64,000 nt of DNA from Dactylosporangium siamense. Lineage in GTDB: Bacteria > Actinomycetota > Actinomycetes > Mycobacteriales > Micromonosporaceae. The notes beneath the pieces were generated by a model. The model was not told the origin of the DNA. It saw only the letters and a list, made by a program, of their open reading frames with translations, and did not search any database. Of the stretch, positions 42,192-60,146 are shown one piece after another; the stretch's first letter is position 1, and each line of letters begins with the position of its first letter. The stretch spans positions 62,001 to 126,000 of the forward strand of contig NZ_BONQ01000069.1 in NCBI RefSeq assembly GCF_016862795.1, given 5' to 3'. Both the position numbers and the translations under genes were made by a program.

Positions 42192-44411
42192 TCAGTGTGG
42201 GCGGAGCGGGATCTCCGCCCACACGATCTTGCCGTCGGCGACCACGCGGGTGCCCCAGCGGTCCGAGGTGGCGCGCACGATGTGCAGGCCGCGGTGGTGC
42301 TCGTCGTCGAAGGCCGGCTCGATCAGGAACGGCAGCCGGTTGTCCTGGTCGAAGACCTCGACCGCGATGTGGGCGGGCAGCAGGTGCAGGCGCAGCTCGA
42401 CCGTGCGGGTGCGGGCGTGGGTGGCCGCGTTGGCGAACAGCTCCGCGACGGCCGAGACCGCGGTGTCCACCCGCTCGCCGGGGACGCCCCACCCGAGCAG
42501 GGTCTGCTCCACGAAGCGCCGGGCGGTCCGGCTCCGCTCCGCCGACGCCGGGTAGGTCGCCCGGGCGGTGAGCGGCACCTCGTCCGGCGGCTGCCGGACG
42601 TAGAGCACCGCGATGTCGTCCTCGTGGTGGGCCGGGTCGACCATCCCCGCGACGAGGTCGTCGAGCGCGGCCAGGGACGGTCGCGGGTGCAGGGCGACGC
42701 GGACCTGCAGGTGGGCGAGCCGGTCCTCGATGTTGCTGTCGCGCCGTTCGACCAGGCCGTCGGTGTACAGCAGCAGCGCCTCGCCGGGCGGCACGGCCAC
42801 GACCTGTTCCGTGTACGGGAAGTCGACCGTGCCCAGTGGCGGCCCGACCGGCCCGGTCAGCAGCCGCGACGGCTGGCCCTCCAGGACCCCGACGGCCGGC
42901 AGGTGCCCCGCGTTGGCGTAGCTCAGGGTCCCGTGCACCAGGTCATAGACGGCATACAGGCAGGTCGCCATCTCCGTGTCGAGGTCGGTCGCGAGCAGCG
43001 TGTTCAGCTGCCGCATCAGCCGGCCCGGGGACAGGTCCAGCGACGCGTACGAGCGGATCGCCGTGCGCAGCTGCCCCATGACGGCGGCCGCGCGGATGCC
43101 CTTGCCCATGACGTCACCGACGACGAGGGCGACCCGGCCGGCCGACAGCGGCACCAGGTCGACCCAGTCGCCGCCGACCTCGACCCCCTTCGCCGCCGGC
43201 AGGTACCGCGAGACCACCTCGAGCCCGTCCAGCCGCGGGATCCGGGGCAGGAGGCTGCGCTGCAGCTCGACCGCGGCGTTGCGCTGCCGCAGGTACATGC
43301 GGGCGTTGTCGAGCGCGACGGCGGCGTGCGCGGCGACGCCGACGGCGAGGCGTTCGTGCCGCGCGGTGAAGCGGGCTGGTCGCGGGTGGCCGAAGAAGAA
43401 GCCGCCGAGCACCTCACCGGTGGAGGACACGACGGGCACGGCCAGGTAGCTCACGACCGGCAGGTGTCCCTCGGGGACGCCGAAGAACGGTTCGTTGCGT
43501 CCGTAGCGCGGGTCCTTGGTGATGTCGTCGCTGCGCAGGTGCCCGACGCCGCGGAACGTCGGGTCGAACACCTTGGTGTTGCGTGGCATCGGGAACTTCG
43601 CGAACGACTCCCTCGGCACCCCGGAGAGGGTGTAGAGCAGGTAGGACTCGCCGACCTCGTCGGTGACGTTGTAGAAGAACGAACCGAACGCCGCCCCGGT
43701 GAGGCTCGTCGCCACGTCGGTGGCGCGCTGGACGACCCGGTCGACGTCGAGCTCCGAGGACAGGTCGGTGCCGACGGCGTGCAGCGCCTCGACGAGGCTG
43801 GTCTCATCCCGCAGCCGGGCCTCCCGCTCGCGCAGTTCCTGCTGGCTGCGGCGCAGCCGGCCGGCGGCGTCGCCGAGCTCGGCGACGGTCTGCTCCAGGC
43901 GGGTCGCCTGGAGCGCCGCGGCCCGCTCCACGGCGGCGAGGAGGTCGCCGAGCGCCTCCTCGCGCTCGGCCGGGCCGGTGCCCAGGTGCCGCTGCAGGCC
44001 GATCCACAGGTTGCCGCCGATCAGCTCGAACAGCTGCGCGGTCTCCGGGTCCAGCCGCGCGGTGACCCCGGCGAGGAGCCGGTAGCCGGCGCCGCCGACC
44101 GCGAGCACGACCCGGACCGGATAGTCGTCGGCCTCGTGCAGCGTGACCCCCCGCGGCGCGGCGAGGGCCGCGGCACCGGCTGCCGGCGGGCCGCCGACGG
44201 TGATCGCCTCGCCGCCGGCGGCGAGGTGCAGCCAGGCGAACGCCGGCCCGTCGCGGCCGCCGCGGCCGTCCCCGTCGCGGATCCGGTCGCACAGCAGCGC
44301 CGCGACGGCCCGCAGCGCCGCCGGCAGGTCATGCGCCGCGGCGGCGGCCGCGCGGACATCCGTCCCGCAGCGCACGATCTCGCTCAACGAGAGGCTGTTG
44401 AGGTCGTACAC
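42192..44411 (-). CDS. multidomain GAF/SpoIIE phosphatase with C-terminal kinase-like ATPase domain
   Basis: 739 residues. Order: an N-terminal sensor-like region, a coiled-coil ([19 protein letters not shown]), a GAF domain (about residues 220-370), a SpoIIE phosphatase with intact [23 protein letters not shown] and EDDIAVL, and a C-terminal HATPase domain of the anti-sigma (RsbW-like) type with [10 protein letters not shown] and HHRGLHIV. Such proteins set the phosphorylation of anti-sigma antagonists. GTG 44409-44411 is preferred because GGAGG lies 4 bp upstream; an in-frame GTG at 44499-44501 would add 30 residues. Convergent with metG. Confidence 0.85.
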
Positions 44412-45132
44412 CGGACCTCCGGTCCTGGAACATTCGCGGACGAACCATCCAAACCGACGACCGGGCGGAGGCGCAACGGCGGCGGCGGCCGCGCCGGTCA
44501 CAGCGTGCGCCTGGAATGCCCTCTATGCCGGTTGTCAGGACGTGCAACTTGCAGAATGGCATGCGTTTGAGCAACGGTTCCGACACCTATGAGGAGTGTT
44601 GCTGATGACACCGTTGTAATTATCCGCAACAAAGTCGTCTTTGCGGCGCTGTCGTAAGTAGTTAGGAACGATGACCTCAGTAGCATCGCGTGGCGACACG
44701 CCGGGTCGGCAAGTGGGAGGATCTTCGCAGTCGTGCAGGACGGGTCCGCCACGGGTCGAAACGGGCCATTCCCCCCAGCTCTGCGAGGCACCCCGGATGC
44801 CGTCCAGCCCCGGGATCACGCTGTGTAGCCACAAGACGCGCAGTAACAACTGACGCTCACAGCAAAACCGGACGAAGTGCGCCTATCGCGCCACCCGCCG
44901 CGCACACGGCGTACGGCAAGACCCTGTTATCAATCGACATTTATCGACACGTAGAGCGCTCAACTGTACGATGGTCGTCAATGTTTGTAGCTATGCAATC
45001 GACGCAGGCGAATGTGAGGCTCCCCTCCGGACGGGTCGGAGTTCTATGGTGGTCGGCGTCAGTTGTCCGACCATTACCACCCTCCGGGAAGGGCTGACCG
45101 GCACGTCGGAAACCGCGTCTTCGGGAGTGACG
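44412..45132. other. intergenic region between divergent SpoIIE and LAL genes
   Basis: 721 bp, visibly lower in GC than its surroundings around 44530-44680 and 44920-45000, with no supported gene: open frames here lack GC-biased third positions and ribosome binding sites. It holds the LAL promoter at 44944-44972. On the minus strand, TTGCAC followed 16 bp later by TAGAGG may be the SpoIIE promoter. ACGTGCAACT near 44540 also occurs upstream of the sugar transferase gene near 22060. Confidence 0.55.
44944..44972 (+). promoter_or_regulatory. promoter of the first LAL gene
   Basis: TCGACA (44944-44949) and TACGAT (44967-44972) match the -35 and -10 consensus in five and four of six bases with an ideal 17-bp spacer. 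ATCGACA occurs twice, at 44933 and 44943, exactly 10 bp apart, the second copy overlapping the -35 box. The start site predicted near 44979 excludes the ATG at 44971. Confidence 0.6.
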
Positions 45133-47966: not shown

Positions 47967-48069
47967 CAACCACCCTTTCCGGGCGAGCCACCCACCCGGT
48001 CGTGAGGGCCACGATATGGGCGGTTGCCGGTGCTCCGGCCGTCGACCGACGAAGGCTCAGGGGTGTGAC

Positions 48070-48747
48070 GTGGTGACGACGGATGTTGCGGTCAACGGTG
48101 TGCGGGTCGGCGTGCGATACGCGGTCGCCGACACGATCGCCGGCGTCGGCGGGGACTGGTTCCTCGGCATCGCCCTGCCGGGCGGCGACGTGATGCTGGC
48201 CGTCGGCGACGTGATGGGCCACGGTCCCGACGCGGCGGGCACGATGCGTCAGCTGCGGGCGTCGATGACGTCCCTCGCCCTCGCCGGTGACGAACCCGGC
48301 ACGATCCTCGCCTCCCTGAACCGGATGCTGTGCCGCCGCCGCACGACGATGCTCGCGACCGCCGTCTGCGGCCGGTTCAGTCCCGCCGACCGGATGCTCG
48401 TCTGGGCCCGCGCCGGCCATCTGCCGATCCTGCGGGCCAACGCCGACGGGGTCTGGCCGCTGCGCCAGCCGCCGGGCATGGCGCTCGGGGTCGAGGCCGG
48501 CGCCGCGTACCCGCACGCCGCCGTGCGCATCGAACCCGGCGAGCTGCTCTTCATGTACACCGACGGCGTCGTCGAGCGCCGTGACCAGGCCATCGACCAG
48601 GGGGTCCAGGGTCTGGTCGACGACGTGCGGGCGGCGATGCGCGCCTCCGCGCCGGACGAGCGCATGGACCGCGCCCTCGACGGCGCCCGGCGCGGCAACC
48701 CCGACGACGACGCCTGCCTGTTGGCCGCCGAGCCGGTCGCCAGATGA
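48070..48747 (+). CDS. single-domain SpoIIE/PPM serine phosphatase
   Basis: 225 residues consisting of little more than the phosphatase domain. All metal-binding motifs are intact: GVGGDWF, VGDVMGHG, YTDGVVE and NPDDDACLL. With no sensor domain, input must come from a partner or from expression level. The GTG at 48070 has AGGGG 6 bp upstream; GTG 48073 is equivalent. A longer reading from 48016 has no ribosome binding site. It follows the LAL gene in the same direction, separated by a hairpin. Confidence 0.85.
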   Translation: MVTTDVAVNGVRVGVRYAVADTIAGVGGDWFLGIALPGGDVMLAVGDVMGHGPDAAGTMRQLRASMTSLALAGDEPGTILASLNRMLCRRRTTMLATAVCGRFSPADRMLVWARAGHLPILRANADGVWPLRQPPGMALGVEAGAAYPHAAVRIEPGELLFMYTDGVVERRDQAIDQGVQGLVDDVRAAMRASAPDERMDRALDGARRGNPDDDACLLAAEPVAR

Positions 48748-48756
48748 CCCGGAACC

Positions 48757-48802
48757 TCACCCATCGAGGGTGATCCCTGCTCACCCGCCTACCTCCAATC
48801 AT
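48757..48802 (+). promoter_or_regulatory. composite operator-promoter 1 (DUF7144 gene)
   Basis: TCACCC (48757), 5 bp, GGGTGA (48768), 7 bp, TCACCC (48781-48786), then 10 bp and the -10-like AATCAT (48797-48802). The three-part spacing is the same as at five other sites in this cluster. It points towards the gene at 49022, giving a leader of about 210 bases. Confidence 0.7.
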
Positions 48803-48867
48803 GTTCCCAGGCACGACGTGGACGTTCCGGGCGCGCGGGCGGCGCGTTCGGCAACGTCCATCCGGGC

Positions 48868-48943
48868 CTGTTCCGGGGGGAACAGATAACAACGGGGGAG
48901 ATAGGCCGTGCCGGTCCTGGTTTCGACCGGGGCCGGCACGGCC
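48868..48943 (+). other. structured leader with two hairpins
   Basis: CTGTTCC-GGGG-GGAACAG (48868-48885) and a stronger hairpin with 11-bp arms GGCCGTGCCGG (48904-48914) and CCGGCACGGCC (48933-48943). Both lie between the predicted start of transcription and the gene at 49022. GGGGGAG precedes a GTG at 48908, but the codons from there to 49021 are not GC-biased in third position, so this stretch is probably not translated as part of the gene. Confidence 0.5.
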
Positions 48944-49021
48944 CGCACGTATTTCCCGCTTGTTTATCCCCTGGTGAAACCGATTCAGCAGACGGCAGAG
49001 GCAGTAGGGAGAGTACGGCGG

Positions 49022-49864
49022 ATGGACAGCGGCGGCGGTGTGGTGAAGGAATGGACCATGTTCGGGACGACGATGCTCGCGCTCGTCGGCACGTTGAACG
49101 TCTCGCAAGGATTGCTGGTGGGATTCGCCAGTGGCGGCATCGGCTTCGACAAGAATGACGTGGCGTTCACCAGCGCCACGACCTGGGCGGCCGCGACGGT
49201 GACGCTCGGTGTGCTGCTCGGCGCGACCGGCCTCGCGCTGCGCGCCCGCAAAGGCAGCGCCCGGGCCGCCGCGATCAGCGTCGTGGCCCTGCACGCGATC
49301 TCGCAGCTCGCCATGCTCCGGGCCTACCCGGCGTGGTCGCTGCTCATGGTCACGCTCGACGTGATCATCCTGTTCATCCTCACGGTCGCGAGGAGCAAGG
49401 CGGCCGGCCCCGACGCCGAACCGGCCGAGATCCCCATCGCCTCGGTCACGAAGCTCGCGCTGCGGCGCAACAGCCGCTCCGACCGGTACCGGGGCCGTCA
49501 CAAGGCCGGCCGCCCGATCGTGCGCCACGAGGACGTGATCCTGGTGGACATCGTCGAGGAGCTCGAGCCGGCCGTCGAGGCGCTGCACGTCGACGTGGAC
49601 CTGGACGTCATCGACTTCGACTCGCCCACCTCATGGGTCCGCGCGGTCGGCCACGCCACGGTCCCGATGGCCCTGGCGGAGCCGGTCGAGGAGTCGCTGG
49701 TCCCCGTTCAGCGCGCCTCGCTCGACCCGCTGATGGACCCGCTGCCGGTGCTGATCGCCGCGACCGCCGACACCGCGATCATCGAGGGTGTGATGGTCGA
49801 GGACGACGAGGAGATCGCCGACGAGCTCGCCGCCATCGGCGCCCGGCCGTACGTGACCCAGTAG
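49022..49864 (+). CDS. DUF7144-type membrane protein with long acidic tail
   Basis: 280 residues. Four transmembrane helices form the N-terminal 125 residues. They align with the protein at 54.0 kb over the whole membrane part, for example AISVVALHAISQLAMLRAYPAWSLLMVTLD against AIVIVALHALIQVGSLGAYPVWSLLMITLS (excerpts). A basic segment (RRNSRSDRYRGRHKAGR) and a 100-residue acidic C-terminal tail follow. The ATG at 49022 has AGGGAGAG 8 bp upstream. Function unknown. Strong terminator downstream. Confidence 0.8.
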   Translation: MDSGGGVVKEWTMFGTTMLALVGTLNVSQGLLVGFASGGIGFDKNDVAFTSATTWAAATVTLGVLLGATGLALRARKGSARAAAISVVALHAISQLAMLRAYPAWSLLMVTLDVIILFILTVARSKAAGPDAEPAEIPIASVTKLALRRNSRSDRYRGRHKAGRPIVRHEDVILVDIVEELEPAVEALHVDVDLDVIDFDSPTSWVRAVGHATVPMALAEPVEESLVPVQRASLDPLMDPLPVLIAATADTAIIEGVMVEDDEEIADELAAIGARPYVTQ

Positions 49865-49885
49865 TTCGGAACAGCCCCACCGCCG

Positions 49886-49925
49886 ACGGCGGCGCCCACA
49901 ACGACGTGGGCGCCGCCGTTCTTTT
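49886..49925 (+). terminator. rho-independent terminator
   Basis: Perfect 14-bp arms ACGGCGGCGCCCAC and GTGGGCGCCGCCGT, 6-base loop, followed by TCTTTT: the clearest intrinsic terminator in the window, 21 bp after the stop at 49864. Confidence 0.92.
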
Positions 49926-50000
49926 GTCGGGTGCGGGCGCGCACCGGGCCCCCCTCTCCTTTCCTCTCGGAGCCGCACTCCCCACCCACCCCACGCCGAA

Positions 50001-50036
50001 AAGGGCGGCCCCCGGGAATTCCCGGGGGCCGCCCTT
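50001..50036 (-). terminator. rho-independent terminator of the second LAL gene
   Basis: A perfect 36-bp palindrome: AAGGGCGGCCCCCGGGAA followed directly by its complement. On the minus strand it is followed by TTTTCGG, and it starts 19 bp after the stop of the gene at 50056. Confidence 0.88.
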
Positions 50037-50055
50037 CGTGGGTCCGGTGAACCGC

Positions 50056-52686
50056 CTACAGCAGGTTCAGTTCCCGGGCCCGCTCGATCACCTCTCGCCG
50101 CCTGCCGACCCCCAGCTTGCGGTAGATGTTCTTCATGTGCGTCTTCACCGTGTTGACGGACACGTAGAGCATCGAGGCGATCTCGCCCGCGGACAGGGTG
50201 CCCTGCAGGTACCGCAGGACGGCCAGTTCGCGTTCGGTGAGTGGTTCGGCCAGTTCTCCCGCCACCGCGGCCGGGCGGCCGAAGCCGTTGAGCTCGGTCG
50301 CGATGTCCTCGGCGACGCCGCGGTATCCGCTGCCCGCCGGCAGGTAGGTCACCAGCAGCTCCCGGACCGGCTGGCCGCCGGCCACGAACGGCCAGCGGAT
50401 GCCTTCGTCCTCGGCGCAGCGCAGCGCCTGTTCCAGAGCGCGGCCGGCCTTGGACCGGTCACCGAGCGCCCGCAGTGCCCGGGCGCAGGTGAGGTTCGCG
50501 TCGACCGTCCACACCAGCGAGCCGGTGGTGTACTCCAGGAACGGCTGGACCGCGCCGAGGGCCGCCGCCGGCCGACGTTCGGCGAGGTGGGCCTTCGCGC
50601 GGACGACACCCAGCCACGGCGCGAGGAGCTCGACCGGTTCCAGGTTGAGCAGCCGCTTGGCCGCCTCCACGTCGCCGGCGGCCAGCCGCAGCTCGGCCTC
50701 GGCGAGCGTGACGCAGTGCTGGAGCCGGGGCGTGTACCGCCAGTCCGCGAGCTGCCGCCGGATCGCGGCGAGCTCGGTGCAGGCGGCCCTGGCGTCGCCG
50801 GCGGCGGCCCGGATGTGCGCCCGGGACATCGTCGCCACCGCCACCAGGCCCGGGTCGGCGAGACCGCCGCCGTCCAGGGCACGGTCCAGGTAGTGCTCGG
50901 CCGCCCGGACCCGGGCCTGCAGGTAGCAGACCTCGGCGACGGTCAGCTGGGCCCAGACCACGTCACTGCCCTGGGTCTGGCCTTCGCGGTCGGCGAGGGC
51001 CAGGGCCTCCTTGCCGTAGCGCATCGCCGCGGACAGCCGGCCGCGGGTCGCGTTGAGCTGCGCGAGCTGTCGCAGCGCGGCCAGCTGGGACTGGACGCCG
51101 CCGCAGCGCCGGGCCAGGTTGAGCGCCTCGGTGAGCGCGAGCTCCGCCGCCGCCAGGTCACCCTGCAACAGCCGGGCACCGCCGACGGCGACGAGCGCCA
51201 GGGCCCGCATCCGGGCGGTGTCCTGGTCGTCGAGGCCCATGTCGTCGCGCAACAGCATCGGTGCCGTGGCCAGGATCAGCTCGGGCTTGCCGGACTGGTG
51301 TGCCTCGGCCATGCGGAAGCTGTCGACGATGGGTCGCAGCGCCACCCGGGCCGACTCGACGAGGGTGTGCTGGGAACGGTCGACCAGGTGCAGGAACGTC
51401 TCCGTGCCCTGCGGGTCGCTGGCGTCCAGTCGCTCCGCCGCGAACGCCAGGGCGAGCCGCGGGTCGTTGCGGACCTCCTGCGGAGGCGGCGGGACCAGTT
51501 CCTTGATGGTCCGCAGCCGCGCCCCGGGCACCAGCTCCTGCCAGCTCGCCGCGAGCAGGTCCGAGGCCTGGTCCCAGTTGCGGGCGGCGAGCGCGTGCCG
51601 CAGCGCGTCGGCCGGCAGGTCGTGCGCGGCGAACCAGTCCGCGGCCCGCCGGTGCAACTGGCGGACCTGCTCGGGCCGGCGGTGGCGAAGCTCGTCGTAG
51701 AGCATGAGACCGAACAGCGGGTGGCACCGGTACATGCCGGCGTTGCCACTGCCCTGCACCACGAACAGGTTCGAGTGCTCCAGCTGCGCGAGGATCCGCG
51801 CGCCGTCGACCCGGCCGGTGAGTGCCTCCACGAGCTCCGCGCTGACCTGGTCGAGCACCGAGGTGCACAGGACGACCTCGCGGATGTCCTCCGGCAGCGT
51901 GTCGAAGACCTCGCCGACGAGGTACTCGCCGAGCGCCCGGTCCTGCAGCGCGAAGCGGGGCACCAGGCTGTCGGGTTCCGGGTGCCCCTGCACGGCGAGG
52001 GCGGCGAGTCGCAGTCCCGCCGCCCAGCCTCGCATCACCGCGTGCAGCTCGACCAGCGCCGACTCGGCGAGCCGGACGCCGTGCGCGTTGAGCATCTGCG
52101 CGGTCTCGTCGAGGGTGAAGCCCAGCGTCCCGTTGCGCAGCTCGGCGAGCGCTCCGCGGATGCGGAAGCGATACAGGGTGAGCGCCGGGTCGGTCCGGCA
52201 GGCGATGACGAGACGCAGGCGGTCACCCGCCTGGGAAAGCAGCGTCTCGAGCTCACCCCACACCCGCGGGACGGACAGCTCCTGCAGGTCGTCCAGGATC
52301 ACGACCACCGGCGGACCCGGCCGGCGCAGCAGCACGATCAGTTCGTCGAGTGCCTCGCCACCGTCGGCGGGTGCCGCGGTGACCTGGTGCTCCGCGGTCG
52401 CCGCGGCGACAGCACCCAGCACGTGCTCCCAAAAGCGTGGGCCATGGTGCGCCTCGACCGTCAACCACGCCAGCGGCCAGGGTGATCGCCCCGCCGCCAC
52501 CCACTCGGCCAGCAGGGTGGTCTTGCCCCACCCCGCCGGAGCTGAGATCAATGTCAAAGGCCCCGCCACCGCCCGATCCAGCGCGTCCAGAAGACGCGGT
52601 CGTGGCACGTGATAGCGGGGCGGCTCAGGCACTGCGAAGTGCAGCGCGGGACGGGTGATCGTGTCTACAAGCGTCTTCTGCCCCAA
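50056..52686 (-). CDS. LuxR-family LAL (MalT-like) regulator, second of three
   Basis: 876 residues. Walker A APAGWGKT (49-56), Walker B VVVILDDLQ, TPR-like helical repeats from about residue 440, and a C-terminal LuxR HTH (PLTERELAVLRYLQGTLSAG, then SVNTVKTHMKNIYRKLGVGR). The start is uncertain. TTG 52684-52686 follows GGGAGGGGG; the longer GTG at 52731 would lie upstream of the start of transcription predicted from the -10 box. Its own promoter carries the composite operator, so autoregulation is likely. It is a close relative of the third LAL protein. Confidence 0.88.
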   Translation of the reverse strand: MGQKTLVDTITRPALHFAVPEPPRYHVPRPRLLDALDRAVAGPLTLISAPAGWGKTTLLAEWVAAGRSPWPLAWLTVEAHHGPRFWEHVLGAVAAATAEHQVTAAPADGGEALDELIVLLRRPGPPVVVILDDLQELSVPRVWGELETLLSQAGDRLRLVIACRTDPALTLYRFRIRGALAELRNGTLGFTLDETAQMLNAHGVRLAESALVELHAVMRGWAAGLRLAALAVQGHPEPDSLVPRFALQDRALGEYLVGEVFDTLPEDIREVVLCTSVLDQVSAELVEALTGRVDGARILAQLEHSNLFVVQGSGNAGMYRCHPLFGLMLYDELRHRRPEQVRQLHRRAADWFAAHDLPADALRHALAARNWDQASDLLAASWQELVPGARLRTIKELVPPPPQEVRNDPRLALAFAAERLDASDPQGTETFLHLVDRSQHTLVESARVALRPIVDSFRMAEAHQSGKPELILATAPMLLRDDMGLDDQDTARMRALALVAVGGARLLQGDLAAAELALTEALNLARRCGGVQSQLAALRQLAQLNATRGRLSAAMRYGKEALALADREGQTQGSDVVWAQLTVAEVCYLQARVRAAEHYLDRALDGGGLADPGLVAVATMSRAHIRAAAGDARAACTELAAIRRQLADWRYTPRLQHCVTLAEAELRLAAGDVEAAKRLLNLEPVELLAPWLGVVRAKAHLAERRPAAALGAVQPFLEYTTGSLVWTVDANLTCARALRALGDRSKAGRALEQALRCAEDEGIRWPFVAGGQPVRELLVTYLPAGSGYRGVAEDIATELNGFGRPAAVAGELAEPLTERELAVLRYLQGTLSAGEIASMLYVSVNTVKTHMKNIYRKLGVGRRREVIERARELNLL

Positions 52687-52734
52687 CGTATTTCGCCCCC
52701 TCCCACCCACCGCAGCACGGCGGATGACCACGGG

Positions 52735-52780
52735 ATTGTGAGGCGATTAAAGGTGAGGACGCCTCACCCGTAGGGGGTGA
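52735..52780 (-). promoter_or_regulatory. composite operator-promoter 2 (second LAL gene)
   Basis: Read on the minus strand: TCACCC (52780-52775), 5 bp, GGGTGA (52769-52764), 7 bp, TCACCT (52756-52751), 10 bp, then -10 CACAAT (52740-52735). GGTGAGG-ACG-CCTCACC (52752-52768) is an additional perfect dyad formed by two of the half-sites. Confidence 0.75.
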
Positions 52781-52798
52781 ACAAATGACGCTGCGTGC

Positions 52799-53689
52799 TC
52801 ACCCGAGGCGACGGACGCAGCGGAAGCCGACGTGGCAGCTGCCGTTGTCGACCGCCTCCGGCTGCCGGGCGGCGGGACGGAACCGGTGGTCATAGCCGGT
52901 GGAGCACAGGTAGGAGCCACCCTTGACGACCCGGCTGGCATAGACGGCCGCCCCTGCCGGGGTGTCGACGCGGGGGTTGTCCGCGATCTCACCCTGCGGT
53001 TGCAGCGGGTCGTCACCCAGATCGAATCTCGCGTTGCCGGACCGGTAGTAGTCCGACGTCCACTCCCACACGTTACCGACCACGTCGAAGAGCCCGTACG
53101 CATTGGCGGCGAACGCACCGACCGGGCTGGTGCCGTGCCCGCCGTCGCTGCGGTCGAGCCAGGGGAAGATGCCGTGCCAGATGTTGGCACGCCCCGGCTC
53201 GGCCTCGTCACCCCATGGGTACACCGACTGCTCGAGCCCACCACGGGCGGCGAACTCCCACTCCGCCTCGGAGGGCAGGTCCTTGCCGGCCCAACGGGCG
53301 TACGCGGCGGCGTCCTCGTAGGCGACGTGCACCACCGGGTGCGCCGACTTCCCCCGGATGTCGGAATCCGGGCCCCACGGATGTCGCCAGGACGCGCCGG
53401 GACGGAACTCCCACCACACCCGCCAGTCGCGCAGCGGCACCGGACCCGGTGGCTGCACGAAGACCATCGAGCCCGGCTGCGGGCCCGGCTCAGGGCCCGG
53501 ATCGGGGTGGCGCTCCGCCACCGTCTCGTAGCCGGTCTCCTGCGCGAACAGGGCAAACTCGGCGTTCGTCACGGGATGCGAGTCGATCCAGAAGCCGTCG
53601 ACGGTGACCTTGCGCACCGGCGCCTCTTCCGGATAGAAGCCATCCGCCCCCATGGCGAACGTGCCACCAGGTATCCAGGCCATCTCCAC
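52799..53689 (-). CDS. formylglycine-generating-enzyme-like (FGE-sulfatase) domain protein
   Basis: 296 residues with the full FGE fold: MAWIPGGTFAMGADGFYPEE, PSEAEWEFAARGG, YPWGDE, NVWEWTSDYY and VVKGGSYLCSTGYDHRFRPA. True FGE oxidises a sulfatase Cys using two active-site Cys residues five apart. Here the first (GGSYLC) is present and the second is Asp (CSTGYD), so classical FGE activity is doubtful. No signal peptide. The GTG at 53689 lies 6 bp after the -10 box, so the message would be leaderless; ATG 53683 is an alternative. No sulfatase gene is nearby. Confidence 0.85.
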   Translation of the reverse strand: MEMAWIPGGTFAMGADGFYPEEAPVRKVTVDGFWIDSHPVTNAEFALFAQETGYETVAERHPDPGPEPGPQPGSMVFVQPPGPVPLRDWRVWWEFRPGASWRHPWGPDSDIRGKSAHPVVHVAYEDAAAYARWAGKDLPSEAEWEFAARGGLEQSVYPWGDEAEPGRANIWHGIFPWLDRSDGGHGTSPVGAFAANAYGLFDVVGNVWEWTSDYYRSGNARFDLGDDPLQPQGEIADNPRVDTPAGAAVYASRVVKGGSYLCSTGYDHRFRPAARQPEAVDNGSCHVGFRCVRRLG

Positions 53690-53695
53690 GACCGC

Positions 53696-53742
53696 ATTGT
53701 GCTGGCGCCGCCGGGTGAGAAGTCCTCACCCGGTGCGGGTGA
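53696..53742 (-). promoter_or_regulatory. composite operator-promoter 3 (FGE-like gene)
   Basis: On the minus strand: TCACCC (53742-53737), 5 bp, GGGTGA (53731-53726), 7 bp, TCACCC (53718-53713), 11 bp, then -10 CACAAT (53701-53696). All three half-sites are perfect. Confidence 0.78.
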
Positions 53743-53786
53743 CGGGCAGTTGATCGATGGACGGATCGATGAACGGGCACCCCGGC

Positions 53787-53832
53787 TCACACGGGCAGGG
53801 TGATGCCCGGTCATCCGGATCCCCGGCAACGT
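53787..53832 (+). promoter_or_regulatory. composite operator-promoter 4 (second DUF7144 gene)
   Basis: TCACAC (53787), 5 bp, GGGTGA (53798), 7 bp, TCATCC (53811-53816), 10 bp, then CAACGT (53827-53832). Two half-sites have one change each, but spacing is exactly conserved. It faces the gene at 54013. Confidence 0.65.
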
Positions 53833-53898
53833 TCGGTCCAAAAGCACCGGTTCGCAATTTCCGCAAGGGAGGGAGGTCGCCACACGAGCTTCGCCGGA

Positions 53899-53938
53899 TC
53901 CGGCCGCGGCGCCTCCTCTCTTGTCCGCCGCGGCCGGA
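53899..53938 (+). other. leader hairpin with 13-bp arms
   Basis: TCCGGCCGCGGCG (53899-53911) and its complement (53926-53938) enclose the pyrimidine-rich loop CCTCCTCTCTTGTC. It lies between the predicted start of transcription (about 53839) and the ATG at 54013. Confidence 0.6.
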
Positions 53939-54012
53939 CGACGAACCTGCTCCCTTGGCCTACCTGCCTCCTGCCGGTGTCCCGCTCGTGCAGAGGAAGG
54001 AACACAGAGGCC

Positions 54013-54927
54013 ATGACCAGGAGCAGAACCGTGTGGTTCGGCTGGGTCACCTTCGCGGCCGTCATGCTCGTCGTGCTCGGGCTCCTCAATGTGCTCGAAG
54101 GACTCGTCGCGCTGCTGCGGAACCAGGTGGCATTCATCGACGGCGACAGTCTCGTCATCGTCAACCTGACCGGCTGGGGCATCCTCATGCTGGCCTTCGG
54201 TGGCCTGTTGCTGGCCGCCGGCATCGGGCTGTTCACCCGCAACACCGCCGCCCGGGTGGCGGCGATCGTGATCGTGGCGCTGCACGCGCTGATCCAGGTC
54301 GGGTCGCTCGGCGCGTACCCGGTCTGGTCGCTGCTGATGATCACGCTCAGCGTGGTGGTGCTGTTCGCGCTCACGGTGCACTGGGACGACTCGCTGGAGC
54401 CGGCGGTGGCCGCGACCACCATGGCGGCGGCGGGCGCGCAACCGGGCGTCCACCGGGCGGAGCGGGAGCCGCACCGCGACGTCCAGCCCGAGTACCAGCC
54501 CGAGTACCAGCCCGAATATCAGCCCGAGTACCAGCCCGGCTACCAGCCGGACTACCAGGGACAGGGCAGCGGCATCCCGATGAACTCCCCGACGTCGCCG
54601 AGCCACCCGGCCGGGCGGCCGTCCGGGGTGCCCGCACACGGCGTGGGTCCGACGTCCGGGCCGAACGTCGGCCCGTACCCGCCGGGTGGTCCCTACCAGT
54701 CGGGGCGGCCGGGGTCCACGGCCCGGCCCAACGAGGGCGCGCACCCGGGCGAACCGGCCCGTGGGGAGACCGCCCGGCACGGCGGCGGCGGCGATCCGGG
54801 GCAGGGCGAGTTCCCGCGGTACGGCGACATGGGCGAGACGACCGGCCGGCACGCCGACACGGGTCGCTGGTCCGATCCGCCGCGCGGCGCGCACGCCGCC
54901 CCCACGTCGGACTACGGCATCATCTGA
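54013..54927 (+). CDS. DUF7144-type membrane protein with Tyr/Gln/Pro repeat tail
   Basis: 304 residues. Four transmembrane helices (WFGWVTFAAVMLVVLGLLNV first) are paralogous to those of the protein at 49.0 kb. The C-terminal 170 residues are disordered: five or more tandem copies of EYQP (coded at about 54481-54560 by a 12-bp DNA repeat), then Gly/Pro/Arg-rich sequence ending SDYGII. The start ATG is supported by the homology of the helix region; the ribosome binding site (GAGG 2 bp away, or AAGG further) is poor. Function unknown. Confidence 0.8.
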   Translation: MTRSRTVWFGWVTFAAVMLVVLGLLNVLEGLVALLRNQVAFIDGDSLVIVNLTGWGILMLAFGGLLLAAGIGLFTRNTAARVAAIVIVALHALIQVGSLGAYPVWSLLMITLSVVVLFALTVHWDDSLEPAVAATTMAAAGAQPGVHRAEREPHRDVQPEYQPEYQPEYQPEYQPGYQPDYQGQGSGIPMNSPTSPSHPAGRPSGVPAHGVGPTSGPNVGPYPPGGPYQSGRPGSTARPNEGAHPGEPARGETARHGGGGDPGQGEFPRYGDMGETTGRHADTGRWSDPPRGAHAAPTSDYGII

Positions 54928-54970
54928 ACCGAGGGGGTCCCACGCGGGAAGAAGAGGTACAGAAGAACAG

Positions 54971-54999
54971 AAGGTGGCTGCCCCCGTGGCAGCCACCTT
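54971..54999 (+). terminator. terminator hairpin after the second DUF7144 gene
   Basis: Perfect 12-bp arms AAGGTGGCTGCC and GGCAGCCACCTT with a 5-base loop, 43 bp after the stop codon. Symmetric, so it may work in both directions. Confidence 0.7.
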
Positions 55000-55033
55000 C
55001 GTCGCGTTCGTCGCGTTCGTCGCGTTCGTCGCG
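54998..55033. repeat. 9-bp tandem repeat, four exact copies
   Basis: TTCGTCGCG is repeated four times without change. It lies between two hairpins. In one plus-strand frame it encodes (Phe-Val-Ala)n. Confidence 0.85.
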
Positions 55034-55044
55034 TGGAAACGTTT

Positions 55045-55082
55045 GAGGCGCCGACGCGGGCCTGGGAGCGCGTCGGCGCCTC
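55045..55082 (-). terminator. terminator hairpin after the 93-residue gene
   Basis: Perfect 13-bp arms GAGGCGCCGACGC and GCGTCGGCGCCTC with a 12-base loop, starting 27 bp after the minus-strand stop at 55110. Confidence 0.65.
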
Positions 55083-55109
55083 TCGCGCCGTCCTTCGGTG
55101 TCAGACGTC

Positions 55110-55391
55110 CTAGGTGACTTGCGATGGGTGGGCGGCCTCCTCCGGATCAGCCGCCCACCCATCGGCTCCCGCCGCCCTCGCTGAAGAGCGCCCGGTGCGC
55201 AGGATGCGGGCCGTGTCCACCGCTCCTCCTGCCCCGTTGAGTACCCCCTGCTCAACGGTGTTCACCTGACGCTCCAGCTGGGTCGTCACGTCGGGGACCA
55301 CCGACGACGTGACGCCCGCGGCTGGCGGGAACGGGCGGACCATCGCGGATGGTGCAGCAGTCACCATCAGGGCCGCCCGCAGTTCGTTCAT
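55110..55391 (-). CDS. small protein of unknown function, 93 residues
   Basis: Not recognised. Hydrophilic, Ala-rich, with a possible short helix SSVVPDVTTQLERQVNTVEQ in the middle and an acidic/His end (DPEEAAHPSQVT). No signal peptide or transmembrane segment is convincing. The case for a real gene is its promoter: a composite operator followed by CAGGAT, whose end lies 7 bp before the ATG (leaderless), and a hairpin just after the stop. It is divergent from the DUF1269 gene. Confidence 0.65.
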   Translation of the reverse strand: MNELRAALMVTAAPSAMVRPFPPAAGVTSSVVPDVTTQLERQVNTVEQGVLNGAGGAVDTARILRTGRSSARAAGADGWAADPEEAAHPSQVT

Positions 55392-55398
55392 GGCAGGA

Positions 55399-55444
55399 AT
55401 CCTGCTGGCTGTCAGAGTGATGCGTCCTCACCCCGGCGGGGTGA
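55399..55444 (-). promoter_or_regulatory. composite operator-promoter 5 (93-residue gene)
   Basis: On the minus strand: TCACCC (55444-55439), 5 bp, GGGTGA (55433-55428), 7 bp, TCACTC (55420-55415), 10 bp, then CAGGAT (55404-55399), which ends 7 bp before the ATG. Confidence 0.72.
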
Positions 55445-55519
55445 TCGGCCAGCGGGCACATCGTCACTCCGCACAGGTGGGGCAGGACGTCGTCCGGCGC
55501 CGCGACGCTCGATCTACCT

Positions 55520-55561
55520 GTCGACGCACGTCACGGAAACGTCGACACACGTCACGGAAAC
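55520..55561 (+). repeat. 21-bp tandem direct repeat in the DUF1269 promoter
   Basis: Two adjacent 21-bp units, each beginning GTCGAC and ending CACGTCACGGAAAC, differ at one base only. They end directly before the ribosome binding site GGAG of the gene at 55573. A period of two helical turns would put both copies on the same face of the DNA. Confidence 0.75.
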
Positions 55562-55572
55562 GGAGAACGGCG

Positions 55573-56055
55573 ATGGCCACGTTGACCGTCTGGAAGTTCG
55601 AGACGCCGGAAGGCGCCGAACGGGCCGCTGAGAAGCTCCAGCAGCTGTCCAAGGAGGGCCTGGTGAAGGTCGAGGACGCCGCGACGGTGTCCTGGGCGGA
55701 GGGCTCGAACAAGCCCAAGACCCGCCAGCTGCACAACCTCACCGCCCGCGGTGCGCTCGGTGGCATGTTCTGGGGGATGCTGTTCGGCCTGATCTTCCTC
55801 ATCCCGCTGTTCGGCATGGCGGTCGGCGCGGCCGCGGGCGCGCTCGCGGGTTCGCTGAGGGACGTCGGGATCGACGACGAGTTCATCAAACGGGCCCGCG
55901 ACGAGATCCAGCCCGGGACCTCGGCGCTGTTCCTGCTGACCACCGACGTGGTGGTGGACCGGGTCCGCGACGCGTTCGCCGGCGAGCGGCCGAAGCTGCT
56001 CCACACCAACCTGTCCAAGGAGCAGGAAGACCACCTGCACGAGGTCTTCGCCTGA
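55573..56055 (+). CDS. DUF1269-type membrane-associated protein
   Basis: 160 residues. An N-terminal soluble part (TLTVWKFETPEGAERAAEKL) leads to a glycine-rich hydrophobic hairpin (GALGGMFWGMLFGLIFLIPL then GMAVGAAAGALAGSL), then a second soluble part with a helix and LFLLTTDVVVDRV. This is the usual DUF1269 plan, often found in stress-linked actinobacterial clusters. ATG at 55573 has GGAG 7 bp upstream. A degenerate operator-like sequence (TCACTC, 5 bp, AGGTGG at 55464-55480) is too weak to assign. Confidence 0.85.
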   Translation: MATLTVWKFETPEGAERAAEKLQQLSKEGLVKVEDAATVSWAEGSNKPKTRQLHNLTARGALGGMFWGMLFGLIFLIPLFGMAVGAAAGALAGSLRDVGIDDEFIKRARDEIQPGTSALFLLTTDVVVDRVRDAFAGERPKLLHTNLSKEQEDHLHEVFA

Positions 56056-56098
56056 GACCACCGAAGTCCGAGCAACCCCGAGCCGGCCCGGAACAGGG

Positions 56099-56132
56099 CG
56101 GTGCCCGGTGTCTTCGCGGACACCGGGCACCG
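56099..56132. terminator. bidirectional terminator
   Basis: Perfect 14-bp arms CGGTGCCCGGTGTC and GACACCGGGCACCG with loop TTCGCG, between the convergent genes ending at 56055 and 56153. Confidence 0.8.
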
Positions 56133-56152
56133 GGACGGGGCAGTACGGTCGT

Positions 56153-56794
56153 TCAGGCATTGGACAGGTCGGCCATCTCCTTCTCCGCGGTCTCGACCTC
56201 CGTGGTCAGCTTGGCGTGCTGTTCGGACAGCGCGTCCAGCAGCCTCCGGGTGGTCTGCAGGCTTTCGGCGCCGATGGAACGGGTCGTCGCGAGGAGGTTC
56301 TCGGCCGCCTCGCGCTGCCGCTGCCGGCGGGTGTCCCACTGCACGCGGCGGGACTGCTCGGCGCGGGCCTCTTCGGAGCGGCGTTGCGCCAGTGCGGTCT
56401 GGAAGTCGCGGATCGCGTCCTCGGCGTGCTTGCGCGCGTCCGCGAGCATCGCCTCCGCCGCGACCCGGGCACCGTCCAGCTCCTCGGCGGCCTGCTTGCG
56501 CAGCGCGTCCGCCTCCTGCTCCGCCAGCTCGATCATCTGCTGGATCCGGCCTCCGACGGCCTTGGAGCTCTCGTCGCCGCACGTGCACTGGCGCAGTTCG
56601 GTGTTGAGCCGTTCGACTCTGCCCGCGAGCTGCTGCTCGCGGTAGCGCGCCGAGGCAAGCTCCGTCTCCACCGTGGTCAACCGCATCTGCAAGGTGGCCA
56701 CGTAGCGGTCGACCTGGGCGCGGTGGTAACCCCTGAGGCTCAGCTCGAACCCGTTCTCACCGCGGAGTTCGATCTCGCCGACAAGCGCGCTCAT
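56153..56794 (-). CDS. DivIVA-like coiled-coil protein
   Basis: 213 residues. The N-terminus FELSLRGYHRAQVDRYVATL matches the DivIVA-domain signature of polar-growth proteins in actinobacteria. The rest is almost entirely charged heptad-type helix (ELASARYREQQLAGRVERL and so on), interrupted by CTCGDESSKAVGG near residue 70. It may bind curved membrane or organise other proteins at the cell pole. The ATG follows a GGGGGAGGGG-containing leader of about 43 bases. Its promoter carries the composite operator. Confidence 0.8.
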   Translation of the reverse strand: MSALVGEIELRGENGFELSLRGYHRAQVDRYVATLQMRLTTVETELASARYREQQLAGRVERLNTELRQCTCGDESSKAVGGRIQQMIELAEQEADALRKQAAEELDGARVAAEAMLADARKHAEDAIRDFQTALAQRRSEEARAEQSRRVQWDTRRQRQREAAENLLATTRSIGAESLQTTRRLLDALSEQHAKLTTEVETAEKEMADLSNA

Positions 56795-56844
56795 CCTGGG
56801 CTCATCCCCTCCCCCGCCCGTCGAAGCAACGGGCGATAGCGGGA

Positions 56845-56890
56845 ACGCTGCCGATCATTGTGGTGACCGCGCGTCATCCGTTCCGGGTGA
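56845..56890 (-). promoter_or_regulatory. composite operator-promoter 6 (DivIVA-like gene)
   Basis: On the minus strand: TCACCC (56890-56885), 5 bp, GGATGA (56879-56874), 7 bp, TCACCA (56866-56861), 10 bp, then CAGCGT (56850-56845). The GGATGA half-site is even closer to the MalT box. Confidence 0.65.
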
Positions 56891-56975
56891 GCCTCCTGCG
56901 TCCGGCGTGCCGGTCCAGCGATGTCGATGGAACCGTTGCTACGCAAGGCAAACAGCCACATCCGCACAGGGAAGA

Positions 56976-56992
56976 CCACCCAGGCAGGGTGA
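56976..56992 (+). promoter_or_regulatory. two-half-site operator upstream of the third LAL gene
   Basis: CCACCC, 5 bp, GGGTGA: the same inverted pair and spacing as the composite sites, but no third half-site is found at +7 on either strand and no convincing -10 box at the usual distance. It lies 67 bp before the start codon. Confidence 0.45.
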
Positions 56993-57059: not shown

Positions 57060-60000
57060 GTGTCGCAAGCGCTGGTACAGCAGGATCGCCGTGGAACGGC
57101 CCCGTCGACGTTGGCGGTGCCGGATCTTCCGCCCGGATACGTGCTGCGCGAGCGCGTCGTCGCGCAGCTGGACGCCGCGGTGCGTGCGCCGCTGACGCTG
57201 GTGACCGCGCCCGCCGGATGGGGCAAGACCGCGGCGCTGGTCGCCTGGGCCCGCACCGTGCGGATCGGCGACGAGATGCCGGTGGTGCGCTGGGTGACCT
57301 CGCACTCGCCGGACGGCGCCGACGTGCCCGGCCGGCTGCGCGGCGCGCTGTCCGCCGGTGACACCAGTGACCTGAAGGCCGACTCGGACGACGAGCTCGC
57401 CCGGGCCGTCGACTCCCTCGACCGGCCCCACATCGTGGTCGTCGACGACGTCCGCGAGATCAGCGACCCGGCCGCCCTGTCGGAGCTGGAGTCGTTGGTA
57501 CGCCACGGCATGGGCCGCCTGCACCTGGTGCTGTCCTGCCGGCGGGACCCGGCGCTGCCGCTGTACCGGTGGCGGGTCAACGGCTCGCTGACGGAGATGC
57601 GCACGACCGACCTGTCGCTGACCATCACCGAGACCGCGCAGCTGCTCGCCGCGCACGACGTGGTCCTGCCGGGCAGCACCCTGTACGCGCTGCACTCGAT
57701 GACCGAGGGCTGGCCGGCCGGCGTGCGGCTCGCCGCCATGGCGATGCGCGGGCACCCGGAGCCGGAGCGGGTCCTCGACGACGGCGGCGCCTACAGCACC
57801 GCGGTCGGCGACTTCCTCACCGGCGAGGTCATCGAGACGCTGCCCGCCGACACCCGCCGGCTGCTGTTCGACACGGCGGTCGCGACCCGCCTCAACGCCG
57901 GTCTGGTCGAGGCGATCACCGGCCGGGACGACGGCGCGCGGGTCCTCGCCGAGCTCAAGGGCTCCAACGCGTTCCTGACCCGCAACGCCGGCCCCGGCGG
58001 CTGGTACCGGTTCCACCCGCTCTTCGCCCGCACGCTGCACTCCGAACTGCTGCGCCGCAACCCGGAACGGGTCGCCGAGCTGCACCGCAGGGCGGCGGCC
58101 TGGCACGCGACCTACGGCATCCCGGCGGAGGCGATGCGCCACGCGCTGCTCGCCGAGGACTGGCCGGGCGCGGTCGAGACCCTCGAGCGCCACTGGCCGG
58201 ACATCGTCGGCGGGGTTCGCTACGACCGCCCGCACGAGGCCGCGCCGCACGCGCCGGCCGGCGACGAGCACACCGACCCGCGGCTGGCACTGGCGTTCGC
58301 GGCGGAGCGTCTCCGCGTGGGCGACCTCGAGGGCACCCGCGACTTCCTGCGCCGCAGCAACCGCGCCAGCGACGCCCCGGACCCGGCACCCACCACGACC
58401 ACCGCCACGACGAGCGCCACGAGCGGCGCAGCCACCGGCACGACCAGCGGCACCGGCACCGCGAGCGGCAACGGCACGAGTGGCAACGGCACCGGCACCG
58501 GCACCGCGGGCAGCGCCGGCAACGGCACGAGCGGCGGCACGGCGAGCGGCACCGGCACCGGCGACGCGGCCGCGGGTCGCCGGGAAGGTCCGGCGGCCAC
58601 GGGCCCCGGCGCCCCGACCGGCAGCGCGGCGGGCCTGACCGCCCGGGCCGGCCAGAGCGCCCCGGGCATGCCGGCCGCCCAGCACACCCCGGCGGGATCG
58701 GCCGCCCCGGCCGCGCGGCCCACCTCGGGCGGCGCCACCGCGGTCATGACCGCCCCGGCCCCGGCCACCGGCCAGCCCGCCACCACGTCGGCCACCGACC
58801 AGCCCGCCGCCACGACCCAGCCGCCGACGAGCGAACCGCCGGCCGCCGCCGCGAAGGGCCCGGTCCGGGTCAACGCCCGCATGATCGCCGGGTTCGCGGC
58901 CGCCGAGGCGTGGCTGTCCGGCGACCCGCGCAGGACCCTCACGGCGCTGGGCGACCTCAACCGCCCCGACGAGCAGAACGACGAGATCCGGGCACTGTCC
59001 ATGCTGGACGAGGGCGAGGCCCGGCTGCGGCTGGGCGAGCTCGCCGCCGCCGGAGCGCCCCTGCACGGCGCCCTGGTGCTCGCCCAGCGCACCGGAATGG
59101 CGCAGGCGCAGGTGTGCGCCGCGGCCCAGCTGTCGGTCCTCGAAGCGGCCCGCGGCCGGCTCCGGGCGTCGGCCCGGCTCGGCCGGCAGGCCCTGGTGAC
59201 CGCGGACCGGTTCGGCATCACCGACGCCACCGACCTCGGCTGGGTGCGGATGGCCCTGGCCAGCGTGTACGGCGAGTGGGACCGCATCGCGGAGGCCGAC
59301 CGCCTCCTGGACGAGGGCCTCGACCTCGCGGCCGGGGACCCGGACCTGCTCGTCGCGATCGCCACCGTCCGGGCGAAACTCCGCCACGGCGCGGGCCGGC
59401 TCGCCGCCGCGCTCGAGGTGCTGCACACCGCGCGGCGCGAGCTCGGCGGCGCGGCCCTGGCTCCCAGCGTGGAACGGGCCCTGGCGCTGACCGAGGCCGA
59501 ACTGCGCATCAGCGGCGGCGATCTCGGCGCGGCGCGCCGGCTCGTCGCTACCGGAGGCGACCCGGACGTGTACCCGGGCTGGGCCGCCTGTGTCGACGCG
59601 TCGGCGGCGCTGGTCGAGGGCAAGGCGGCCGCCGCCGCGTCGACCGCCCAGCAGTTCGCGACCCCGTCGGTGGACACGGCGCTGACGTGGACCGTGCACG
59701 CGGCGATCCTGACGTCCCTCGCGGGCCGGGCGCTCGGCGACCGGAACCGGGTGCTGCGGGGCCTGGAGGTGGCCCTCGACATCGCCGAGGAGGAGAGCTT
59801 CCGGCGGCCGTTCCTCGTCGGCGGGCACCCCGTGCGGGACCTCCTGGCGAACTTCGCGCCGCTGCTGCCGGTGTACCACCCCCTGGCCGCGGAGCTCGCC
59901 GCCGGTTCGTCGCCTCTCGCGGGTGGCGGGCGCGGCGCCGACGGCAGCCTGGTGGAGCCGCTCACCGAACGGGAACTGACGGTGCTGCGCTACCTGCAGG

Positions 60001-60146
60001 GCACGATGTCCAACCTGGAGATCGCCTCCACCCTGTACGTGTCGGTCAACACCGTGAAGACGCACGTGAAGAACATCTACCGCAAGCTGCACGCCGGCCG
60101 CCGGCGCGAGGCCGTCGAGCGGGCCCGGGAACTGCGGTTGCTGTGA
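57060..60146 (+). CDS. LuxR-family LAL (MalT-like) regulator, third of three, with low-complexity insertion
   Basis: 1028 residues. Walker A APAGWGKT (50-57), Walker B HIVVVDDV, then the helical domain (RFHPLFARTLHSELLRRNPE). From about residue 436 to 602 an insertion of almost only Thr, Gly, Ser, Ala and Pro separates it from the TPR-like part. The C-terminal HTH PLTERELTVLRYLQGTMSNL...SVNTVKTHVKNIYRKLHAGR is nearly that of the second LAL protein. GTG 57060 has GGGGGG 6 bp upstream. Its stop overlaps the next start (TGATG). Confidence 0.9.
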   Translation: MSQALVQQDRRGTAPSTLAVPDLPPGYVLRERVVAQLDAAVRAPLTLVTAPAGWGKTAALVAWARTVRIGDEMPVVRWVTSHSPDGADVPGRLRGALSAGDTSDLKADSDDELARAVDSLDRPHIVVVDDVREISDPAALSELESLVRHGMGRLHLVLSCRRDPALPLYRWRVNGSLTEMRTTDLSLTITETAQLLAAHDVVLPGSTLYALHSMTEGWPAGVRLAAMAMRGHPEPERVLDDGGAYSTAVGDFLTGEVIETLPADTRRLLFDTAVATRLNAGLVEAITGRDDGARVLAELKGSNAFLTRNAGPGGWYRFHPLFARTLHSELLRRNPERVAELHRRAAAWHATYGIPAEAMRHALLAEDWPGAVETLERHWPDIVGGVRYDRPHEAAPHAPAGDEHTDPRLALAFAAERLRVGDLEGTRDFLRRSNRASDAPDPAPTTTTATTSATSGAATGTTSGTGTASGNGTSGNGTGTGTAGSAGNGTSGGTASGTGTGDAAAGRREGPAATGPGAPTGSAAGLTARAGQSAPGMPAAQHTPAGSAAPAARPTSGGATAVMTAPAPATGQPATTSATDQPAATTQPPTSEPPAAAAKGPVRVNARMIAGFAAAEAWLSGDPRRTLTALGDLNRPDEQNDEIRALSMLDEGEARLRLGELAAAGAPLHGALVLAQRTGMAQAQVCAAAQLSVLEAARGRLRASARLGRQALVTADRFGITDATDLGWVRMALASVYGEWDRIAEADRLLDEGLDLAAGDPDLLVAIATVRAKLRHGAGRLAAALEVLHTARRELGGAALAPSVERALALTEAELRISGGDLGAARRLVATGGDPDVYPGWAACVDASAALVEGKAAAAASTAQQFATPSVDTALTWTVHAAILTSLAGRALGDRNRVLRGLEVALDIAEEESFRRPFLVGGHPVRDLLANFAPLLPVYHPLAAELAAGSSPLAGGGRGADGSLVEPLTERELTVLRYLQGTMSNLEIASTLYVSVNTVKTHVKNIYRKLHAGRRREAVERARELRLL

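Follow-up and report, generated by a model that had tools for sequence, protein, structure and literature searches.

Six three-box sites in a Dactylosporangium gene cluster

The stretch of Dactylosporangium siamense DNA analyzed here (the window; 64,000 nucleotides of contig NZ_BONQ01000069.1) contains genes for three LuxR-type regulators of the LAL family, LAL1, LAL2 and LAL3, and six matches to the pattern TCACCC-N5-GGGTGA-N7-TCACCC, whose hexamers are referred to below as boxes 1, 2 and 3 (Table 1). The original prediction, made from the DNA letters alone, had described these matches as a shared operator that defines a local regulon. All six were recovered, with the proposed half-sites and spacings, when up to three mismatches were allowed among the 18 specified bases, against a mean of 0.15 and a maximum of two matches in 100 shuffles of the window. 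Boxes 1 and 2 are separated by five bases at every site, and every site is oriented toward the gene downstream of it, as had been claimed. The targets had likewise been named correctly: two DUF7144 proteins, LAL2, a protein resembling formylglycine-generating enzyme (FGE), a 93-residue protein without a match in Pfam or NCBIfam and, weakly, a DivIVA-like protein whose match falls below the cut-off.

Table 1. Sites, -10-like hexamers and genes of the window (window positions; 7/7, found in all seven Dactylosporangium genomes, own genome counted)
Feature	Position	Strand	Details
Three-box site before DUF7144 gene 1	48757..48786	+	0 mismatches; 7/7
-10-like hexamer AATCAT	48797..48802	+	A at 42, T at 46 in site numbering
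DUF7144 protein 1 (listed frame)	48908..49864	+	PF23636, E 1.6e-19
LAL2, MalT-like LuxR-type regulator, favored candidate binder	50056..52731	-	TPR_MalT and GerE domains; PDB 8bob MalT E 7.7e-35
-10-like hexamer CACAAT before LAL2	52735..52740	-	in register
Three-box site before LAL2	52751..52780	-	1 mismatch; 7/7
FGE-like protein	52799..53689	-	PF03781, E 3.2e-78
-10-like hexamer CACAAT before FGE-like gene	53696..53701	-	one base later than the other five
Three-box site before FGE-like gene	53713..53742	-	0 mismatches; 7/7
Three-box site before DUF7144 gene 2	53787..53816	+	2 mismatches; 7/7
-10-like hexamer CAACGT before DUF7144 gene 2	53827..53832	+	in register
DUF7144 protein 2	54013..54927	+	PF23636, E 1.6e-30; listed frame 53800-54927, start 54013 by eye
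93-residue protein	55110..55391	-	no known family
-10-like hexamer CAGGAT before 93-residue protein gene	55399..55404	-	in register
Three-box site before 93-residue protein gene	55415..55444	-	1 mismatch; 7/7
DivIVA-like protein (weak match)	56153..56794	-	PF05103, E 0.0012, 19.3 bits, below cut-off of 28
-10-like hexamer CAGCGT before DivIVA-like gene	56845..56850	-	in register
Three-box site before DivIVA-like gene	56861..56890	-	2 mismatches; 7/7
Two-box palindrome upstream of LAL3, doubtful member	56976..56992	+	1 mismatch
LAL3, LAL2 paralogue, second candidate binder	57060..60146 (start approximate)	+	44% identity to LAL2 over 427 residues

The matches are not scattered at equal density over the D. 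siamense genome (12.7 Mb, 296 contigs): all four with at most one mismatch and six of the eight with at most two lie inside the cluster, and 27 matches were found with at most three, compared with three for a reversed control pattern. Across the Dactylosporangium genomes, 2 of 108 columns vary within the boxes versus 36 of 72 within the spacers. An origin by chance or as coding repeats in G+C-rich DNA would draw on the 72% G+C content and on some matches elsewhere that fall within genes; it is contradicted by the shuffle and reversed-pattern controls, by conserved boxes separated by free spacers and by the fixed -10 element described below, and we consider its probability negligible. When 28 loci were picked by the two-box pattern alone, a third box stood at offset 7 in seven of them and at any other offset in none to two; because these loci had not been selected for box 3, the enrichment shows that it is a real element.

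Promoter geometry

Two columns outside the boxes are strongly conserved in an alignment of 88 near-unique sites from many genomes (Dactylosporangium loci L028-L053 excluded). With the first T of box 1 numbered 1, an A at position 42 is combined with a T at position 46 in 60 of the 72 related sites with at most one mismatch, a set that included those loci after removal of near-duplicates (>80% identity). In other registers between -10 and +19 the same pair was found in 0 to 4 of the 72. The tally for the three-box sites was 60 at register 0, two at -1 and three at +1. A-11 and T-7 form the pattern of the -10 hexamer and, by this pattern, the fourth element is a -10 hexamer (xAnnnT) at a fixed distance from the boxes. 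The term operator is thus apt for a real element and incomplete, as the boxes are the upstream part of a promoter. The hexamer is in register at five of the six window sites; the one-base displacement at the site before the FGE-like gene recurs in four other Dactylosporangium loci (L235, L236, L237 and L241).

No conserved -35 hexamer was found in the site alignment. If transcription is assumed to start near position 53, about 7 nt after the -10 element, boxes 1, 2 and 3 span -52 to -47, -41 to -36 and -28 to -23, respectively. Start codons near the predicted start (across the 72 sites, 11 ATG at 53 or 54 and 17 GTG at 52 or 54, not all of them necessarily real) would fit leaderless messages at some genes. 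Sites without box 3 have their -10 in two registers, -1 and 0, as opposed to mostly one where box 3 is present, a difference suggesting joint reading of box 3 and the -10 element.

The original prediction had added a two-half-site version at 56976-56992, perhaps belonging to LAL3. The palindrome is present and is kept in four other aligned Dactylosporangium loci, but it has neither a third box nor a -10 in register. It was therefore not upheld as a full member of the regulon and is its weakest one.

LAL genes, site distribution and known systems

We profiled 45 genomes, representing 44 genera of the Micromonosporaceae and a second Dactylosporangium, and scored a strong LAL where a LAL2/3-type protein matched with more than 600 bits (19 of 45 genomes, one through a split match). 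A three-box site with at most one mismatch was present in 17 of the 19 strong-LAL genomes versus 3 of the 26 others. Exact palindromes with a spacer of five (N5) numbered 56 in the 19 strong-LAL genomes; seven genomes in which the LAL match was weaker or partial contained 19, and the remaining 19, which had no LAL match, contained 8. The proximity count covered 14 of the 17 genomes with both a strong LAL and a three-box site (G029, G030 and G037 were left out; site lists extended to one mismatch for G009 and to two for the others): a site lay within 4 kb of the LAL gene in all 14, against 0.16 expected under even placement. This co-occurrence, together with the TPR_MalT and GerE domains, supports the proposal that a MalT-like LAL is the likely binder.

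BldM, a developmental response regulator that had gone unconsidered when the LAL proteins were proposed as the natural binders, also has a LuxR-type DNA-binding domain. The Streptomyces BldM Group I site TCACcCgnncGgGTGA, supported by footprints, has half-sites identical to those of the window sites, and forms a 16-bp palindrome with a spacer of four; the available part of the report mentions no third box (PMC4125116). The spacer of five at the window sites argues against BldM, as do the counts of palindromes with a spacer of four (N4), which do not track LAL: 49, 8 and 60 in the same three groups of genomes. Moreover, the sites adjoin LAL genes, and the targets in relatives are stress genes and not whiB or ssgR. 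Binding by BldM is thus improbable.

Exact N5 palindromes also occur near weaker LAL matches (G018, contig C54; G036, C21; G048, C102; G049, C110), and on these sequences the link between site and LAL may reach past the LAL2/3 clade. In genome G022 (genus g17), TCACCC-N3-GGGTGA accounts for 8 of 14 palindromes with spacers of 2 to 9; these are perhaps sites of another regulator with the same half-site.

Outside the family, the three-box form is rare: of 293 genomes of the class, nine have it, as a single match each, with an in-register -10 at one of the nine matches. It is present together with a -10 at the LAL loci L250 and L275 of uncultured actinobacteria; in the metagenome-assembled genome carrying L250, the LAL gene lies beside DUF7144, FGE-like and DUF1269 genes and three-box sites. 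A DUF7144 gene also adjoins the LAL gene at the Streptomyces locus L285. Named LAL loci from other families, 49 in all with many Streptomyces among them (879 kb), contain 55 exact palindromes with N5 and at most one with any other single spacing from 0 to 12; 30 Micromonosporaceae LAL loci gave 23 with N5, six with N4, three with N3 and none or one with other spacings. At 87 near-unique two-box sites of other families (174 orientations), the -10 was at register -1 in 52 cases, at 0 in 27 and at any other register from -20 to +30 in 0 to 6, and the third box was not enriched (three at offset 7). A two-box site is present in 65 of the 77 named LAL loci of our tree (two of 79, with short proteins, were left out), a figure without a chance estimate that, the loci having been picked as LAL2/3 relatives, says nothing on LAL proteins at large. 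These distributions bear on whether boxes 1 and 2 are LAL sites while a sigma factor or a different protein recognizes box 3. Two-box sites are usual at Streptomyces LAL loci, where box 3 is unenriched, and sites lacking it function in Actinoplanes, according to the accessible portion of PMC7567727. Box 3 is, however, the same hexamer as box 1, with all six letters conserved in the site alignment, making a separate reader very unlikely.

E. coli MalT, to which the half-site had been compared, binds multi-box arrays and shares its protein architecture with LAL2 and the placement of its boxes near -35 with the window sites. It differs in its box, GGGGA(T/G)GAGG (quoted in PMC7567727), LAL2 and LAL3 score below the cut-off of the NCBIfam MalT model (285 and 231 bits versus 537), and no maltose genes are among the targets seen. 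The closest precedent is MalT of Actinoplanes sp. SE50/110 (ACSP50_3915), a LAL that activates a region of 51 genes, induced by maltose and mostly unclear in function, and for which motif search, deletion and overexpression are described in the part of the study available (PMC7567727). There, a TCATCC-5nt-GGATGA palindrome lies 34.4±1.0 nt from 17 transcription starts and sites gather round the regulator gene, as they do here (PMC7567727). The two systems share the regulator family, a hexamer palindrome, the spacer of five and overlap with the -35 region; by the position of the -10, the window palindromes agree with a location some 34 nt before the (predicted) start, and their end would be about 35-36 nt from a start placed 7 nt after the -10.

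They differ in the half-site (TCACCC/GGGTGA here, TCATCC/GGATGA in Actinoplanes), in the third half-site, which the accessible text does not report for Actinoplanes MalT, and in the stress-type targets found here as opposed to a maltose-induced region (PMC7567727). Because base 4 of the half-site differs, we regard the sites described here as a variant and not as the same regulon. The two-box core is thus already known, contrary to the original view of the motif as undescribed, whereas the third box, the C-type half-site and the wider regulon look new: no description of the three-box form, including a third half-site between -35 and -10, was found in a full-text literature search, outside which most subscription papers lie. 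Among 15 TCATCC-type sites inspected (14 from five genomes of genus g30, presumably Actinoplanes, and one from D. siamense), a third box was absent, and a -10 stood at register -1 or 0 in 11 of 30 orientations. The Streptomyces coelicolor regulators SCO0877 and SCO7173 belong to the LAL family like LAL2 and have broad effects; no binding motif is given in the available part of that report (PMC3282765).

Among the LAL proteins of loci L235-L313, those with KAH or KxHQ in the recognition helix tend to have nearby sites with T at half-site base 4, compared with C for those with KTH[LMVI]. Base 4 was C or T in 205 and 17 cases, respectively, near KTH[LMVI] proteins and in 13 and 23 near KAH or KxHQ proteins, counts in which the helix groups were defined after inspection and related loci recur many times. 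With loci as units the evidence is thin: C is in the majority at 40 of 42 KTH[LMVI] loci with sites versus one of eight KAH/KxHQ loci (three with a T majority, four ties). These data are a hint that recognition-helix residues covary with base 4.

The candidate regulator and its regulon

The fixed -10, the offset of box 3, the tracking of LAL by N5 palindromes, the proximity of sites to LAL genes and the Actinoplanes precedent together argue for a LAL-driven promoter. From these sequence features we infer, with a probability of about three in four, that each site belongs to a promoter under the control of a MalT-like LAL, most likely LAL2 and perhaps also LAL3, which binds there as an activator. 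Boxes 1 and 2 would be occupied by a LAL dimer that replaces the -35 contact and recruits RNA polymerase to the weak -10, 10 bases after box 3, and a further LAL subunit on box 3 may strengthen or time activation. The site before LAL2, which is the sole basis for this step, would let LAL2 activate its own gene.

Several points weigh against this interpretation. A location between -35 and -10, such as that of box 3, is uncommon for activators and would fit a repressor, and LAL2 and LAL3 are not separable as binders. The expectation of 0.16 used for proximity presumes evenly placed sites. The strong-LAL genomes G033 and G040 have no three-box site at up to one mismatch; conversely, such sites occur without a strong LAL in G008 (a LAL fragment only), G010 (one site) and G011 (four sites, 69% complete), and the -10 is in register at 4 of 11 sites from genera without a strong LAL. 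Box 3 spans about -28 to -23 and LAL2 itself has such a site upstream, which would also accord with this box acting as a brake, filled last and blocking polymerase, so that the LAL would activate at low and repress at high levels. Retention of the site at six genes in all seven genomes speaks against a brake, and box 3 in step with the -10 also fits activation; we consider a brake unlikely and favor activation by the LAL.

The regulon extends beyond the cluster. A local core stands, as judged by the share of close matches in the cluster, but sites are scattered across the chromosome in Micromonospora (genus g4, in which the site sequences of G178 are identical to those of M. avicenniae, L255) and occur on other contigs in D. 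siamense; a purely local regulon was set aside. D. siamense has 19 matches with exactly three mismatches, and at five of them a -10 stands in register or one base away from it; the three of these whose downstream genes were annotated precede an Hsp20 gene (C122), a further DUF7144 gene (C224) and a gene for a protein without a known family. Sites that resemble the one on C122 occur in four other Dactylosporangium genomes. By their sites, the Hsp20 and further DUF7144 genes probably belong to the regulon. Among 67 downstream proteins of relatives, Pfam identified BON (18), DUF2267 (10), AhpC (6), SCP2 (6), Hsp20 (3) and Hsp70 (2), and thioredoxin, SpoIIE and DUF7144 once each. These 67 were hand-picked from 107 called downstream proteins and include no Dactylosporangium protein; the selection passed over most sites that lack a -10 and most doubtful frames, but retained three with no -10 in register (L076, L127 and L148:941-1390). 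Two Micromonospora sites, L081 and L085 (gene FAD-dependent reductase-like by eye), lie inside a called frame and were rejected as coding. The targets, which include DUF7144 membrane, FGE-like, DivIVA-like and Hsp20 proteins in D. siamense and BON, DUF2267, peroxiredoxin, Hsp20, DnaK and thioredoxin proteins in relatives, would point to a stress response, and by its predicted members the whole resembles a stress regulon built around a local core.

Further features of the cluster were noted. By eye, the true start of DUF7144 protein 1 is probably further in, near 49023 or 49059. LAL3 has a long Thr/Gly/Ala/Ser-rich insert (~58400-58900, + strand) separating its ATPase and TPR parts, and the whole protein exceeds the D. 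vinaceum LAL3 as called (L095:4200-6836) by about 150 residues. Active formylglycine-generating enzymes have two Cys residues (LC...YC) in a stretch that reads GGSYLCSTGYDHRF at the C-terminal end of the FGE-like protein (52799-52930, - strand). With its single Cys there, the protein may be a non-catalytic relative. A defense-system reading of the LAL or FGE-like proteins was discarded, PADLOC having returned only weak helix-turn-helix matches. LAL1 is flanked by two genes for SpoIIE-type phosphatases (42192-44501, - strand, and 48016-48747, + strand), one with GAF and HATPase domains, and a SpoIIE gene lies downstream of a site at the relative's locus L112. A DUF1269 gene (55573-56055, + strand), of a kind also held by the L250 LAL locus, lies inside the cluster without a site oriented toward it.

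LAL proteins occur widely among actinobacteria; the S. coelicolor study calls them poorly studied (PMC3282765). We tentatively propose that a Micromonosporaceae LAL reads a three-half-site promoter, with the odd subunit between -35 and -10, to govern a general stress response (Hsp20, DnaK, peroxiredoxin, thioredoxin, BON and DUF7144), and that this might be one branch of an old and little recognized LAL/N5 system across the Actinomycetota, in which the recognition helix shifts with half-site base 4. A code of two boxes, a fixed -10 and an optional third box would allow targets to be predicted for the clade from Micromonospora to Streptomyces, and DUF7144, BON and DUF2267 genes would gain a common stress context. 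The third box would let the placement of the subunits of a MalT-like (STAND-type) activator relative to RNA polymerase be probed directly.

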